A DNA stretch of 64,000 nucleotides from Butyricicoccus faecihominis (GTDB lineage Bacteria; Bacillota; Clostridia; Oscillospirales; Butyricicoccaceae): the NCBI RefSeq assembly GCF_024462775.1, contig NZ_JANGCE010000013.1, positions 1 to 64,000 on the forward strand. Direction: 5' to 3'. Position 1 is the first letter of the stretch. Every line of letters starts with the position of its first letter. The notes beneath the pieces were generated by a model. The model searched no databases. It saw nothing but the letters and a program-made list of their open reading frames with translations, and had not been told where the DNA came from. Positions 7,680 through 34,392 of this stretch are shown here, one piece after another. Made by a program: the position numbers and the translations under genes.

Positions 7680-8564
7680 ATGTTCGGCTTTATCCGCCCG
7701 GTGCGCCCTGAGCTGCGCGTTCGGGAGGTCGATCGGTTTCAGCAGGTCTATTGTGGGCTGTGTCATGCGATACGCGGCCGATACGGCCGGTTTTATACGC
7801 TTTTTTTGAGCTATGATATGACCTTTTACGCGCTGGTAATCGGCTGCGGCAGTACGGAGACCCCGCCGCCCTGCGGCAAGCGGTGCGACGCGAGCCCGTT
7901 TCGCAAAAAGGCCTGCGCCGCGCCGGACGAATTTTTGGAGCGGGCGGCCGATGTGAGCGTGCTGCTCACCTACCATAAGCTGCGCGATAGTCTGGCGGAT
8001 GAAAAGGGCGCAAAGCGGCTTTTGGCAAAAACGCTGTGCCACTTGGGGCGAAAGGGCTACGAACAGGCCCGCGCCCGTCTGCCGGAAGCCGACCGGCGCA
8101 TGGTGCGGGCGCTGGAAGACCTGCAAACGCTGGAACAGCAAAACTGCGATTCCATGGACCGCGCGGCCGACGCTTCCGCGCGGCTGACCGCCGCCGCCGT
8201 GCCCCAAACGGGCGACGCGCGCGAGCGCATCCTCACGCAGATGTTTTACCACGTAGGCCGGTGGGTCTACCTGCTGGACGCCTGCGCCGATGTGGCGGAG
8301 GATCTTGTAAGCGGCAACTACAATCCCGTGGTGCGGCGCTATGGCTTGCAGGCCCCGGCCCTGTCCGAGATCAAGCAGCCGCTGGAAACGACGCTCGAAC
8401 GGTCGCTTGTCGACGTGTGTTCGGCTTTCGACTTGCTCCGGCCCGAGCGGGACGAGGGGCTTTTACGCAATATTATATTTTTGGGTATGCCGCTCGTCAC
8501 GAGACAAGTGCTGGACGGAACCTACCAAACGAACGGAGGATGGGGCAAACATGGATCCCTATAA
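7680..8564 (+). CDS. DUF5685 family protein
   Basis: A 294-residue protein matching DUF5685, which has no known function. It starts MFGFIRPVRPEL and has cysteines near the N-terminus (YCGLCHAIRGRYG) and a second cluster (CGKRCDASPFRKKAC, near residue 62) that could coordinate metal. The rest is mostly helical. Its 3' end overlaps the J-domain gene by 14 bp, so the two are translationally coupled. This pairing and the Cys content suggest a shared job in folding or metal handling, which is inference. Confidence 0.75.
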   Translation: MFGFIRPVRPELRVREVDRFQQVYCGLCHAIRGRYGRFYTLFLSYDMTFYALVIGCGSTETPPPCGKRCDASPFRKKACAAPDEFLERAADVSVLLTYHKLRDSLADEKGAKRLLAKTLCHLGRKGYEQARARLPEADRRMVRALEDLQTLEQQNCDSMDRAADASARLTAAAVPQTGDARERILTQMFYHVGRWVYLLDACADVAEDLVSGNYNPVVRRYGLQAPALSEIKQPLETTLERSLVDVCSAFDLLRPERDEGLLRNIIFLGMPLVTRQVLDGTYQTNGGWGKHGSL

Positions 8565-9162
8565 AGTGCTCGGCGTGACGCCGCAGACCAGCGACGACGA
8601 CGTCAAGCGCGCCTATCGCGATCTGGCGCGCAAATACCATCCCGATAATTATATCAATAACCCGCTGTCCGATCTGGCGGAAGCCCGCATGAAGGAGATC
8701 AACGAGGCTTACGACATGATCATGAACGAGCGCGCCGGAAAAAACGGCGGACCGGCTGGACAGCAGGCGGGAGGCGCGCAAAGCGGGCCTGCCGGGCAGC
8801 GGCAGTACACCGGCGCGAACGCCGGCCTGTACAGTCAGGTGCGTCAGGCGATCAATCAGGGTAATCTGGGGCTCGCGGAGTCGCTTTTGCAGCGTATTTC
8901 CGCGCGGGACGCCGAATGGTTTTTCCTGATGGGCACGGTGTATTACCGCAAGGGCTGGTACGATGAAGCGGGCCGCGCCTATACGCAGGCTTGCCAGATG
9001 GACCCGGCCAATGTGGAATACCGCACCGCGCTGAATAATTTGAACATGTCGGGCGGCTACGGCGGCTACCGCCCGATGGCGGAGGCCAACATGTGCGACT
9101 GCTGCATGCAAATGGCCTGTCTTAACTGCTGCCTGAACGCGTGCTGCGGGGGCGGATGCTGA
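8551..9162 (+). CDS. J-domain (DnaJ-like) protein with TPR-like region and Cys-rich tail
   Basis: About 203 residues. The J-domain (residues 1-65, MDPYKVLGV) holds the HPD tripeptide in KYHPDNY, needed to stimulate Hsp70. A Gly/Ala/Gln-rich linker follows, then a two-helix repeat like a tetratricopeptide (YRKGWYDEAGRAYTQACQMD). The last 25 residues are packed with cysteines (CDCCMQMACLNCC, then CCGGGC). The ATG at 8551 has GGAGG upstream and overlaps the DUF5685 gene. The zinc-finger region of true DnaJ is absent, so this is a specialised co-chaperone; the tail may bind metal or be acylated. Confidence 0.85.
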   Translation: MDPYKVLGVTPQTSDDDVKRAYRDLARKYHPDNYINNPLSDLAEARMKEINEAYDMIMNERAGKNGGPAGQQAGGAQSGPAGQRQYTGANAGLYSQVRQAINQGNLGLAESLLQRISARDAEWFFLMGTVYYRKGWYDEAGRAYTQACQMDPANVEYRTALNNLNMSGGYGGYRPMAEANMCDCCMQMACLNCCLNACCGGGC

Positions 9163-31125: not shown

Positions 31126-31581
31126 ATGAAGTGTCCATTTTGCGGGTTTGGGGACAGTAAAGTGGTCGATTCCAGACCGACCGACGAGGGGACGAGCATC
31201 CGCCGCCGCCGTGAATGTCTGCAATGCTTAAAGCGATTCACCACCTATGAGACCGTTGAGCGGATGCCGCTTATGCTCATCAAGCGGGATGGCACGCGTC
31301 AGGCTTATGACCGGCAGAAATTGCTGAATGGTCTGATCAAGGCGTGCGAAAAGCGTCCGGTGTCGCTGATGCAGCTCGAACAGATCGTAGACAATGTGGA
31401 GCAAAAGGTGTTCAGCTCGCTGGAAAACGAAATTTCCAGCATGGTCATCGGCGAGCTTGTGATGGATCAGCTGCGGCTGGTGGACGAGATCGCGTACGTG
31501 CGCTTTGCCTCGGTCTATCGTCAGTTTAAGGATATCAGCTCCTTTATGGACGAGCTGAATACCCTGATACGCGAAAAATAA
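31126..31581 (+). CDS. nrdR: Ribonucleotide reductase repressor NrdR
   Basis: A nucleotide-sensing repressor of ribonucleotide reductase genes, 151 residues. The N-terminal zinc ribbon ([15 protein letters not shown], then [12 protein letters not shown]) is followed by an ATP-cone domain ([17 protein letters not shown]). I see no NrdR-box pair in its own upstream region. No nrd structural gene is nearby. Confidence 0.96.
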
Positions 31582-31585
31582 AGTC

Positions 31586-31614
31586 TTGACAAACGGCCAT
31601 GAAGGGGCTAAACT
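31586..31614 (+). promoter_or_regulatory. Promoter of the metNIQ leader transcript
   Basis: TTGACA (31586-31591), exactly 17 bp, TAAACT (31609-31614). Predicted transcription start is near 31621, about 48 nt before the leader-peptide ATG. Confidence 0.75.
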
Positions 31615-31668
31615 ATAAACCACGAAAGTAATCACTATTGAAACCGTAGGAAAAGGAGGAAAACCGTT

Positions 31669-31746
31669 ATGACAGCACTGCGAATGTACATGGCAAGCGG
31701 TTTTGCTCGTATTTCTGCCGCGAAGGGGCGAATGTGCCTTTCGTAA
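31669..31746 (+). CDS. Putative 25-residue Met-containing leader peptide of metNIQ
   Basis: A short ORF, MTALRMYMASGF followed by ARISAAKGRMCLS, with an ideal ribosome site (AAAAGGAGG, 9 nt before the ATG). Four of 25 residues are Met (1, 6, 8 and 22), with a Met-Tyr-Met group, and Cys follows Met22. It lies between a good promoter and a terminator directly ahead of the methionine transporter, so a regulatory leader is far more likely than a functional small protein. The last codons form one arm of a hairpin (31721-31743). No canonical SAM-I riboswitch or T-box motif is visible in the leader. Confidence 0.7.
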   Translation: MTALRMYMASGFARISAAKGRMCLS

Positions 31747-31829
31747 CAGACGCGGGCCGCTTTCCATGCGGTTTTGCGTTTTCTTAGAAAAACGAGCGGA
31801 AAGCAAATTGGCTTTCCGCTTTTATTTTG
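31721..31829 (+). promoter_or_regulatory. Terminator/antiterminator attenuator before metN
   Basis: The terminator is GCGGAAAGC (31796-31804), a six-base loop, GCTTTCCGC (31811-31819) and TTTTATTTT. An upstream GCTTTCC (31759-31765) can pair with GGAAAGC (31798-31804) and block it. That upstream arm can instead be held in hairpin CCGC/GCGG (31757-31760 and 31768-31771, extendable to 31751-31778). A small hairpin 31777-31794 lies between the antiterminator arms. Hairpin CGAAGGG/CCTTTCG (31721-31743) abuts the leader stop codon. Confidence 0.7.
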
Positions 31830-31849
31830 AATTCAAGGGGGAATGAGGT

Positions 31850-32869
31850 TTGGAACAGGACGCGATCGTCCGCATCCGGGATCTAAACAAGACCTTCCGG
31901 ACGAAAACAAACACCGTCGTTGCGCTCGACGGCGTCAGCCTCGATGTGACGCGGGGTGAAATATTCGGCATTATCGGCCTTTCCGGCGCGGGCAAGTCGA
32001 CGCTTGTGCGCTGTATCAATTTTTTGGAAACGCCGACGGCCGGTACCGTTGAAGTGGACGGGCGCGAGTTGGGCGCGCTCTCCAAAAAGGAGCTGCTCGA
32101 AGCCAGACGCTCGATGGGCATGATCTTTCAGCAGTTCAACCTATTGCAGCAGCGCACGGCGCTGCAAAACATCTGTTTCCCGTTGGAGATCGCGGGCGTT
32201 AAAAAGGATGAAGCGGAAAAACGGGCGAGAGAGCTGCTGGGGATCGTCGGTCTGACCGAACGGGCGGAGGCGTATCCGGCGCAGATGTCGGGCGGCCAAC
32301 AGCAGCGCGTGGCGATCGCCAGAGCGCTTGCGACGAACCCCAAAATCCTGCTCTGCGACGAGGCGACCTCCGCGCTTGACCCGACGACCACCCGGTCGAT
32401 CCTCGCGCTGCTGAAAGAAATCAATAAAAATCTGGGTATCACCGTGATCATCATCACGCACGAAATGGCGGTTATTGAAGAAATCTGCCAGCGCGTCGCC
32501 ATTATCGATTCCAGCCGCATCGCGGAGATCGGCACGGTCGAGCAGGTGTTTACCCGACCGAAGTCCGCCATGGCCAAGCAGCTGATCTACCCGAACGGCG
32601 AGCGGGACCGCCTTGCGACAGGCAAGCGCTATTGCCGCATCGTGTTCGACGGCAACTCGTCCTTTGAGCCGGTGGTGTCCAATATGGTGCTCGAATGCAA
32701 GGCGGCGGTCAATATCATGTTTGCGGATACCAAGGATATTGACGGCAAGGCCTACGGCCAAATGATCTTGCAGCTGCCCGAGGACGAACGCGCCGCGTCG
32801 CGCGCGCTGGCGTACCTCGAAACACAGAATGTGCATGTGGAGGAGGTGGACAACGATGCTTACGCCTGA
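31850..32869 (+). CDS. metN: Methionine ABC transporter ATP-binding protein MetN
   Basis: The ATPase of the D/L-methionine importer, 339 residues. Walker A GLSGAGKSTL, signature MSGGQQQRVAIARAL and Walker B ILLCDEATSALD are followed by a C-terminal NIL domain (about residues 262-339), which senses methionine in this family and supports the substrate assignment. The start is TTG 31850 with AGGGGG about 10 nt before it. It overlaps metI by 14 bp. Expression is probably set by the attenuator upstream. Confidence 0.95.
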   Translation: MEQDAIVRIRDLNKTFRTKTNTVVALDGVSLDVTRGEIFGIIGLSGAGKSTLVRCINFLETPTAGTVEVDGRELGALSKKELLEARRSMGMIFQQFNLLQQRTALQNICFPLEIAGVKKDEAEKRARELLGIVGLTERAEAYPAQMSGGQQQRVAIARALATNPKILLCDEATSALDPTTTRSILALLKEINKNLGITVIIITHEMAVIEEICQRVAIIDSSRIAEIGTVEQVFTRPKSAMAKQLIYPNGERDRLATGKRYCRIVFDGNSSFEPVVSNMVLECKAAVNIMFADTKDIDGKAYGQMILQLPEDERAASRALAYLETQNVHVEEVDNDAYA

Positions 32870-33518
32870 ACTCTGGGGCCTAATGGGCACTAGCCTGCTG
32901 GAAACCCTGTATATGGTCATTCTGGCTACCGCTTTTTCCTATTTGATCGGCTTGCCAATCGGCCTTGCGCTCGTTGCCACCGAGCGGGACGGTATTCGCC
33001 CGCTGCCGGCGTTTAATAAGGTGCTGGGCTTTGTGGTCAATATTTTGCGTTCGGTACCGTTTTTGATTTTGCTGGTTTATGTTCAGCCGTTGACCCGCGC
33101 GATTGTGGGCACCTCGATAGGTTCGACGGCGACCATCGTGCCGTTGGTCATCGCCGCGGCTCCCTATGTGGGGCGTATGGTCGAAAGTTCGATCAAAGAA
33201 GTCAGCTTTGGCGTGATCGAAGCCGCACAGTCGATGGGAGCAAGCCCGTGGCAGATCGTAACCAAAGTTCTTGTGCCCGAGGCCAAGCCGTCGCTGCTGG
33301 TCGGCGCGGCGATCTCGATCGTCACGATTTTAAGCTATTCCGCCATGGCCGGTTTTGTTGCGGGCGGCGGTCTTGGTACGGTTGCTATCAACTATGGCTA
33401 CAACCGCTATCAGTTCGATATCATGACCGTCGCAGTTGTCATCATTGTTATCGTGGTGCAAATTTTTCAGGAGTGCGGACTGTGGCTGGCTAAAAAGCTG
33501 GATAAACGCAACCGTTAA
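32856..33518 (+). CDS. metI: Methionine ABC transporter permease MetI
   Basis: About 220 residues with five or six membrane segments and the permease-ATPase coupling region EAAQSMGASPWQIVTKVLVP. ATG 32856 follows GGAGGAGG and overlaps the end of metN. The order metN-metI-metQ is the usual one. Confidence 0.95.
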   Translation: MLTPELWGLMGTSLLETLYMVILATAFSYLIGLPIGLALVATERDGIRPLPAFNKVLGFVVNILRSVPFLILLVYVQPLTRAIVGTSIGSTATIVPLVIAAAPYVGRMVESSIKEVSFGVIEAAQSMGASPWQIVTKVLVPEAKPSLLVGAAISIVTILSYSAMAGFVAGGGLGTVAINYGYNRYQFDIMTVAVVIIVIVVQIFQECGLWLAKKLDKRNR

Positions 33519-33567: not shown

Positions 33568-34392
33568 ATGAAGAAGAAAATTGCAGCCCTGCTGGCATGC
33601 ACGCTATGCCTGTCGGCCCTTGCCGCCTGCGGTGGCAATGACGCTAAGGGCGAAGAAGACAAGACGATCACCGTCGGTGCCTCGCCTACACCCCATGCGG
33701 AGATCCTAAACGCCGCCAAGGACGTGTTGGCCGAACAGGGGTATACGCTGGTCGTGAAGGAATTTTCCGATTACGTCATTCCGAACACGGCATTGGTAGA
33801 CGGTGAGCTGGATGCGAACTACTTCCAGCATACACCGTACCTCAATACCTTTAATCAGGAAAACAGCGCAGATCTGGCTGTGGCGGTAGAGATGCACTAT
33901 GAGCCGTTTGGCGTGTATCCCGGCAAGACTGCTTCGCTGGATGAGTTAAAGGATGGCGCGACAGTGGCTATTCCCAACGACGGCTCAAACGAAGCGCGCG
34001 CGCTGCTGCTGTTGCAGGACGCTGGGCTGATCAAGCTGAAGGACGGCATTGATCCGACCTCCAAAGATGCTACCGTACTTTCTATTGTAGAGAATCCGAA
34101 GAATTTGAAGATTTCGGAGATCGCCGCCGAACAGTTGCCGCGCTCTCTGCAGGATGTTGATATTGCGGTCATTAACGGCAACTATGCGCTGCAGGCCGGA
34201 CTGAACGCGAACGACAACGCGATCGCTACCGAAACCCCGGATTACGGCAAGGTATACGTCAATGTTGTTGCTTGCCGCTCCGAAGATAAGGATTCGGATA
34301 AAATGAAGGCGCTCGCCGACGCGCTGCACTCCGATACGGTAAAGAAATTTATCGAGGACACCTATCAGGGCGCGGTCGTTCCCACGTTTTAA
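33568..34392 (+). CDS. metQ: Methionine-binding lipoprotein MetQ
   Basis: The extracellular substrate-binding component, 274 residues of the NlpA family. A lipoprotein signal with lipobox LAAC (Cys at residue 20) is followed by ITVGASPTPHAEIL, the typical start of mature MetQ, and DGELDANYFQHTPYL with ligand-contact residues. A strong terminator follows 17 bp after the stop, ending the metNIQ operon. Confidence 0.95.
   Translation: MKKKIAALLACTLCLSALAACGGNDAKGEEDKTITVGASPTPHAEILNAAKDVLAEQGYTLVVKEFSDYVIPNTALVDGELDANYFQHTPYLNTFNQENSADLAVAVEMHYEPFGVYPGKTASLDELKDGATVAIPNDGSNEARALLLLQDAGLIKLKDGIDPTSKDATVLSIVENPKNLKISEIAAEQLPRSLQDVDIAVINGNYALQAGLNANDNAIATETPDYGKVYVNVVACRSEDKDSDKMKALADALHSDTVKKFIEDTYQGAVVPTF

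Follow-up and report, generated by a model that had tools for sequence, protein, structure and literature searches.

A probable ribosome-mediated attenuator with methionine codons ahead of metNIQ

Organization of the metNIQ leader

The window, i.e. the whole 64,000-nucleotide stretch of DNA that was analysed, carries the genes of a methionine importer on its forward strand. These are metN (31850–32869), encoding a methionine ABC transporter ATPase with a NIL domain (TIGR02314, 359 bits, below the cut-off of 499.7; Pfam NIL, 83 bits); metI (32856–33518), encoding a permease (NF008049, 199.8 bits, below the cut-off of 212; Pfam BPD_transp_1); and metQ (33568–34392), encoding an NlpA-type substrate-binding lipoprotein (Pfam Lipoprotein_9, 306 bits). 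An initial annotation had proposed a NIL-domain methionine importer downstream of a methionine attenuator, and the importer is thus confirmed. The gap between nrdR and metN is 268 bases long and holds a promoter, a leader ORF, a hairpin at its stop codon, a middle hairpin and a terminator, all on the forward strand.

The putative promoter is of the sigma-70 type, TTGACA-17-TAAACT (31586–31614), with TTGACA at 31586–31591, a spacer of 17 nt and TAAACT ending at 31614, so that 10 of the 12 bases match the consensus. One promoter-like site was found in 31400–32000, compared to 0.4 expected in shuffles, and in the upstream sequences of relatives the promoter position is occupied by TTGACAAA. The leader peptide ORF (31669–31746) has 25 codons, MTALRMYMASGFARISAAKGRMCLS, with methionine at positions 1, 6, 8 and 22, and follows an AAGGAGG ribosome site. 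The hairpin at its stop codon (31720–31744) was found in the window fold and covaries in relatives. It is followed by the middle hairpin (31748–31781), with the conserved sequence GGGCCG...TGCGG, where five consensus pairs hold in 100% of alignment cells. An intrinsic terminator appears to lie between the leader ORF and metN (31794–31829), as judged from its match to the consensus and its conservation: a stem at 31794–31821, in which 97.9% of cells are paired in relatives, precedes the T-rich tail TTATTTTG, and GGAAAGC in its 5′ arm is at 31798–31804. The initial annotation had described the promoter, the ORF with its ideal ribosome site and four methionines, the stop-codon hairpin and the terminator, and each was found where it had been placed.

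Four regions of the leader can be defined by their pairing partners. Region 1 (31646–31668), GTAGGAAAAGGAGGAAAACCGTT, holds the ribosome site of the leader ORF and is predicted to pair with region 2, both in the window fold and as helix 1 of the RNAalifold consensus. Region 2 (31697–31718), GCGGTTTTGCTCGTATTTCTGC, lies within the leader ORF and, from the alignment and the fold, may pair either with region 1 or with region 3. Region 3 (31788–31804), AAAAACGAGCGGAAAGC, comprises the 5′ arm of the terminator and an upstream extension; its possible partners are region 2, giving an antiterminator, or region 4 (31811–31821), the 3′ arm of the terminator stem. The leader RNA folds better than all 200 of 200 dinucleotide shuffles (z −4.07; 3′ part, z −4.43). 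The minimum-energy fold pairs the transcript's 5′ end (31625–31631) with the U-rich tail of the terminator (31822–31828).

An Rfam scan of the leader returned no family at the gathering score; the best sub-threshold match at E ≤ 10 was L20_leader, with 22.5 bits against a cut-off of 58.7. A SAM riboswitch of the families in Rfam 15 and a T-box were each rejected for this operon, as no covariance model matched the leader, in agreement with the view of the initial annotation that metNIQ has neither. SAM-I gave one match per genome in each of the 25 genomes of the genus, taken to be Agathobaculum. In the window's own genome, the sole match (L124, G000:C3:15818–15930) lies ahead of a metK-like gene, so named from its sequence. 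At E ≤ 0.001, T-box matches numbered 7 to 13 per genus genome, and those of the window's own genome lie elsewhere than at this operon. Therefore, the cell has both systems, but not at the metNIQ leader.

Conservation of the leader and its helices in Agathobaculum

When 60 genomes, the window's own and relatives, were searched at the DNA level, the leader turned up in 22 that belong to the same genus, and one genome of another family gave short matches. An alignment of 22 leaders was made from 26 loci with metN matches at E ≤ 1e−20, leaving out L029–L032 (second matches of the same places, or a contig-end fragment); the same-species copy in G060 does not belong to this alignment. The RNA model built from these 22 leaders, R1, matched 23 of the 25 genus genomes at E below 1e−30, and metN was found (E below 1e−180) in exactly the same 23. 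Both leader and metN were absent from the other two, G002 (99% complete) and G016 (78% complete). A. butyriciproducens carries the leader (L208). In G003, leader sequence, whole or partial, and metN sequence are present on two contigs, C65 and C13, reflecting either a split assembly or two copies.

The typical peptide of the relatives is MLSIRMNMCMMCGFARFSAMQR, most of them reading M..R.xMCMMCGFARFSA. Where they have M.MCMMCGFAR, the window species has MYMASGFAR; the other genome of this species, G060, encodes an identical peptide. On comparison of these sequences, the window copy is a divergent one that appears to have been shortened in frame by two codons, losing both core cysteines, and has fewer methionines in this part. 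It contains four Met and Cys residues besides the start, a number matched by none of 100 shuffles of its own (p 0.01); taken alone, the window's leader ORF is a modest case of Met/Cys enrichment.

The reading frame is open through MCMMC/GFAR in all 22 aligned leaders, one of which (L022) has a GTG start. Arg5 is kept in 21 of 22, encoded by CGA, CGG or CGT, so that the rare CGA codons, which the initial annotation had considered as a possible signal, are not supported as one. Cys9 and Cys12 are likewise each present in 21 of 22 leaders, as TGC or TGT, as are Met8 and Met11, while codon 7 varies freely. Codons 15–16 are GCT CGT in 22 of 22, with zero synonymous change, and Ala19 is encoded by GCC, GCG or GCA. 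The silent changes in codons 5–12 and their absence in codons 15–16 suggest that the first part is constrained as codons or peptide, the second as RNA. The open frame in 22 of 22 leaders and the synonymous variation at Arg5 and the cysteines support a translated leader ORF with its own ribosome site. The initial annotation had made its proposal depend on conservation of the ORF and its methionine codons in relatives; both are conserved, in favour of the proposal. The signal is probably wider than methionine, since 21 of the 22 aligned leaders carry the two core cysteine codons that the window species has lost: it is likely to be methionine in the window species, and methionine together with cysteine in most relatives.

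Further copies of the device in the genus were sought with a gapped pattern (ribosome site, ATG, ATGTGCATG), which misses divergent copies such as the window's. It matched at 21 places in 18 of the 25 genomes, with one match on the backwards control. Eighteen of these places are known leaders, and the remaining three were taken for coding sequence, judging from their letters. A looser pattern gave 13 matches in the window's own genome, compared to 3 on the backwards control.

Without guidance, RNAalifold predicts helix 1:2, the stop hairpin, the middle hairpin and the terminator. Across the consensus pairs, 96.8% of 945 alignment cells are paired, a level reached by none of 500 shuffles. Two-sided changes occur at nine pairs, six of which make up all the pairs of the stop hairpin (6/6). 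The middle hairpin GGGCCG...UGCGG ranks with the best conserved elements of the leader, although the attenuation model gives it no part. Helix 1:2 has 19 pairs, with 96.2% of cells paired. Helix 2:3, between the ORF segment GCTCGTTTT and the terminator 5′ arm with its AAAAC extension, has 14 pairs, with 98.1% of 308 cells paired; when the partners were slid by 1 to 3 columns, this fell to 57–68%. The alignment shows no two-sided (compensatory) change in helix 2:3, its changes being one-sided and mostly to G-U, and shuffling the 2:3 partners gave the same paired fraction because region 2 hardly varies. The window species has an A-A mismatch in both helices. Over the 22 leaders, the energies range from −14.6 to −25.0 kcal/mol for helix 1:2, from −14.5 to −20.4 for 2:3 and from −17.5 to −22.4 for the terminator; the corresponding window values are −23.2, −14.5 and −17.7 kcal/mol.

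The effect of a ribosome on these helices was modelled by masking everything up to the front of the stalled ribosome. Region 1 was masked by assumption, because helix 1:2 should not form while a ribosome occupies the ∼40-nt loop separating the two regions; with a bare 30-nt footprint mask alone, helix 1:2 stays at 0.60. Before region 4 is made, the mean probability of 2:3 is 0.95 in this stall model compared to 0.29 in free RNA, and for the window RNA 0.97 compared to 0.02. In free RNA before region 4, some relatives (e.g. L009, L019, L024) favour 2:3 over 1:2. At full-length equilibrium with a stalled ribosome, 2:3 averages 0.77 and 3:4 averages 0.79, with 2:3 taking just the base of the terminator. 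The counted terminator pairs are thus largely kept beside 2:3, and antitermination would need either a kinetic basis or a separation of hairpin and U-tract. With the ribosome at the stop codon, 2:3 is still 0.35 before termination, and the terminator averages 1.0 once made. Given the masking assumption, the retained terminator and the 0.35 in the stop state, we regard 2:3 as a likely, not a proven, antiterminator.

The initial annotation had assigned the antiterminator arm to GCTTTCC, pairing with GGAAAGC of the terminator. This element is present at 31759–31765, and the pairing is plausible in the window RNA (−10.4 kcal/mol; probability 0.53 in the stop state before region 4), but the role is not conserved. 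Over the 22 leaders, 90.2% of 153 cells are paired and the energy ranges from −2.1 to −11.9 kcal/mol; the central pair is broken in 11 of the 22 relatives, and the mean probability is at most 0.04 in any state. We therefore rejected GCTTTCC as the antiterminator arm.

Regions upstream of metN in other Clostridia

Other genera of the family contributed 17 metN upstream regions, five of which have Met/Cys-rich ORFs dissimilar to that of the window (G034, G028, G094, G091 and G025). By eye, six are T-box-like (L107, L108 and L112–L115), five contain metQ-like coding sequence and G083 shows none of these. To these regions we added an order sample of 78 metN upstream regions, the non-family part of the 97 genomes with a match among 394, and a named sample of 80 public metN loci, the best by similarity to this MetN among the matches listed. 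An ORF was scored if it had an ATG start, 12–45 codons and a ribosome site ahead of it, a pattern that misses some leaders, e.g. those of G028, G094 and G025, which were read by eye. Regions below the length needed had been excluded at the start, and dropping 15 near-duplicates kept 166 of 181 regions.

At least six Met and Cys residues besides the start were found in 40 of the 166 regions, which are not independent since related species remain among them, compared to 0.13 expected (100 shuffles each); none was found on the reverse strand. Together with the M-C-M-M-C of the relatives, these counts point to an excess of codons for the operon's own amino acid. Thirty-two of the 40 come from outside Agathobaculum, and several of these are related to one another. 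One of the 40, L159, is doubtful as a case, as it has a T-box-like motif by text pattern (with no Rfam match at gathering). The leader peptide of Clostridium sp. MCC353 is MRNSKAMQMNMYMMNGMMDMCRMFMCIKTS; that of a Christensenella MAG begins MKNFAMAMCGMMMCGSMSF and that of a Herbinix MAG MRTSFKAMCFNMCGMCSM. Of the ORFs with at least four internal methionines, 38 of 39 contain cysteine, a share that is partly selected because the ORF had been chosen by its Met+Cys count. In one group of MAGs (L223, L227, L233, L238, L240 and L243), two tRNA genes precede the Met/Cys leader at a distance of at most a few hundred bases.

No such ORF was found on either strand in 124 kb from loci retrieved for their SAM-I or T-box matches, or in 127 kb flanking the named metN loci. 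The 64-kb window has two, one ending at 9162 and one at about 14981. The former was rejected as a leader, being the Cys-rich tail of a J-domain-like protein. Judged from sequence, this protein lies at about 8520–9162 (+) and has a very Cys-rich C-terminal tail, MCDCCMQMACLNCCLNACCGGGC. A pattern match in G020 (C7:10709) has a similar start, MCDMCM.

A terminator-like hairpin with a T-rich tail was observed, without a shuffle control, behind the ORF in all 15 loci scored out of 17 selected (L277 and L260 left out). At Rfam gathering scores, 20 of the 21 named non-Agathobaculum loci picked for such ORFs were without a cis-regulatory match (L237 left out), and 20 other named loci gave two T-boxes. 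The 78 order loci gave four T-boxes, all in loci without Met/Cys ORFs, and no SAM riboswitch. Six named loci have SAM-I-like sequence ahead of metN, by text pattern alone. Most of the surveyed loci show neither nameable kind of leader.

Conservation of the RNA itself is confined to the genus and a weak R1 match in G034. Seven of the weak R1 matches elsewhere in the family (E 1e−5 to 1e−2; L059–L065) were looked at by eye: six were rejected as leader copies, showing just a terminator-like hairpin, and L060, in G034, lies upstream of metN. G034 belongs to another genus, with a metN 81% identical to the window's, and its leader encodes MMMQCAMMCRMSAMMCGFFQF.... Here too the ribosome site is predicted to pair with the codons that follow the last MMC, a pairing equalled by 0.7% of shuffles; the 2:3 duplex of G034 does not stand out from shuffles, 37.5% of which equal it. 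For two other aligned clades, the consensus folds show terminators and ORF-internal hairpins, with no clear alternative antiterminator.

Interpretation and related systems

The conserved leader ORF with its methionine codons, and the absence of a SAM riboswitch or T-box match at this operon, bear out the core proposal of the initial annotation, and we consider it quite probable that the leader is a ribosome-mediated (trp-type) transcription attenuator of metNIQ, sensing the charging of Met tRNA (and of Cys tRNA in most relatives). The leader ORF, with Met codons, or Met and Cys codons in nearly all aligned relatives, would be translated during transcription. Where charged Met-tRNA (or Cys-tRNA) is scarce, the ribosome would stall on these codons and keep helix 1:2 open. 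The freed region 2 (UUUUGCUCGUUUU) could then pair with region 3 (AAAACGAGCGGAA), the base of the terminator 5′ arm, weakening the terminator and allowing metNIQ to be transcribed. Where the amino acids are plentiful, the ribosome would reach the stop codon, region 2 would be masked or re-paired with region 1, and terminator 3:4 would form. If the leader is not translated, 1:2 would form and hide the leader's own ribosome site, and transcription would also stop.

The same RNA switch might instead be driven by a sensory arrest peptide, a class that includes TnaC and SpeFL, with the nascent MCMMCGFARF stalling the ribosome together with a small molecule inside the tunnel, be it free methionine, SAM, cysteine or a drug. 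Arg5, the MCMMC core and GFARF are indeed conserved in Agathobaculum, but the peptides of other genera differ, sharing mainly their Met and Cys content, and the AR of GFARF would be conserved because of RNA pairing, as even the silent positions are fixed there. We consider an arrest peptide improbable. Somewhat less credit still is given to an undescribed metabolite-binding riboswitch or a protein-bound leader, with the short ORF incidental: no Rfam family matched, and beyond the genus the family yielded no more than a weak match to the RNA, in G034, whereas Met/Cys-rich ORFs recur. What speaks for such an element is the middle hairpin, strongly conserved and without a role in the attenuation model.

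The conserved CMMC motif of Agathobaculum could also belong to a functional small Met/Cys-rich protein, e.g. a metal-binding CxxC peptide, with the terminator a plain one between two genes. However, the window copy has lost CxxC, the peptides differ among genera, the stop-codon hairpin covaries and bases of the ORF pair with the terminator, and this explanation seems to us very improbable. Finally, the window alone, with just four Met codons and one Cys codon and with nrdR directly upstream, might suggest a short ORF present by chance in the nrdR tail and terminator. Chance is, in our view, refuted by the conservation: the leader is present in each of the 23 genus genomes with metN, Met/Cys-rich ORFs far exceed the shuffled expectation in the wider survey, and nrdR is in the fetched flank of just three genomes (G000, G009 and G010).

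If metNIQ is controlled by attenuation as proposed, leader peptides would be a third RNA solution, common on this operon in the Clostridia sampled, that appears to alternate with T-boxes, which makes a single operon available for studying how sensors replace one another. For a leader peptide, methionine is an unusual signal because translation initiation uses it too, and how a Met-sensing leader stays active in starvation is a directly testable question. Met/Cys leader ORFs would also help to tell which operons of gut anaerobes import sulfur amino acids. A broader reading is tentative, and we hold it with more doubt than confidence: a class of attenuators widespread among Clostridia might read interleaved Met and Cys codons and be exchanged with T-box and SAM-I leaders on metNIQ, the Streptomyces leader described below being convergent; and in Agathobaculum the helix that hides the leader ribosome site might make Met-dependent initiation part of the sensor, such that mild starvation induces the operon and severe starvation shuts it.

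The enterobacterial trp, his and leu attenuators consist of a leader ORF with control codons, alternative 1:2, 2:3 and 3:4 helices and an intrinsic terminator, and the leader described here resembles them in its ORF, its alternative helices and its terminator. It differs in its putative signal, Met (and Cys in relatives), and in that region 1 holds the ribosome site of the leader instead of lying within the control codons. In Firmicutes, SAM riboswitches or Met T-boxes are the usual assumption for methionine control, and T-box and SAM-I leaders sense tRNA or SAM without a translated ORF. In other genera, T-box leaders are found at the corresponding position upstream of metN (two named and four order loci by Rfam); neither they nor SAM-I (S-box) leaders match on the window's operon.

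Naville and Gautheret reportedly described a His leader peptide in bacilli. In the available excerpt of one study, such a peptide in bacilli is presented with none known earlier outside Proteobacteria and Actinobacteria except ermC (PMC2965389). Excerpts of others describe His attenuators in C. difficile and relatives (PMC9413887) and a Leu-rich leader attenuator in S. aureus (PMC5794164). As far as these excerpts go, the His and Leu/Ile attenuators of Firmicutes share the phylum, the leader peptide and the terminator/antiterminator arrangement with the leader described here, and differ in amino acid and operon (PMC2965389, PMC9413887, PMC5794164).

For Actinobacteria, the part of a comparative study available to us, in which the S-box is named for methionine control, states that no conserved RNA regulatory structure was found for methionine operons (PMC1262725). 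A Met/Cys leader ahead of metNIQ has already been predicted in Streptomyces lividans; for Clostridia, the open-licence literature searched yielded no account of a Met leader peptide. According to the accessible portion of that work, the S. lividans metL belongs to another phylum, is transcribed leaderless and is given there with no alternative pairing, a typical Rho-independent terminator not having been found; it has no relation by eye to the sequence described here (PMC8079986). The same portion shows what the two have in common: metL is a predicted Met leader peptide ahead of the same operon, metNIQ, and its end, RCMCRRMCAF, likewise mixes Met codons with Cys (PMC8079986).
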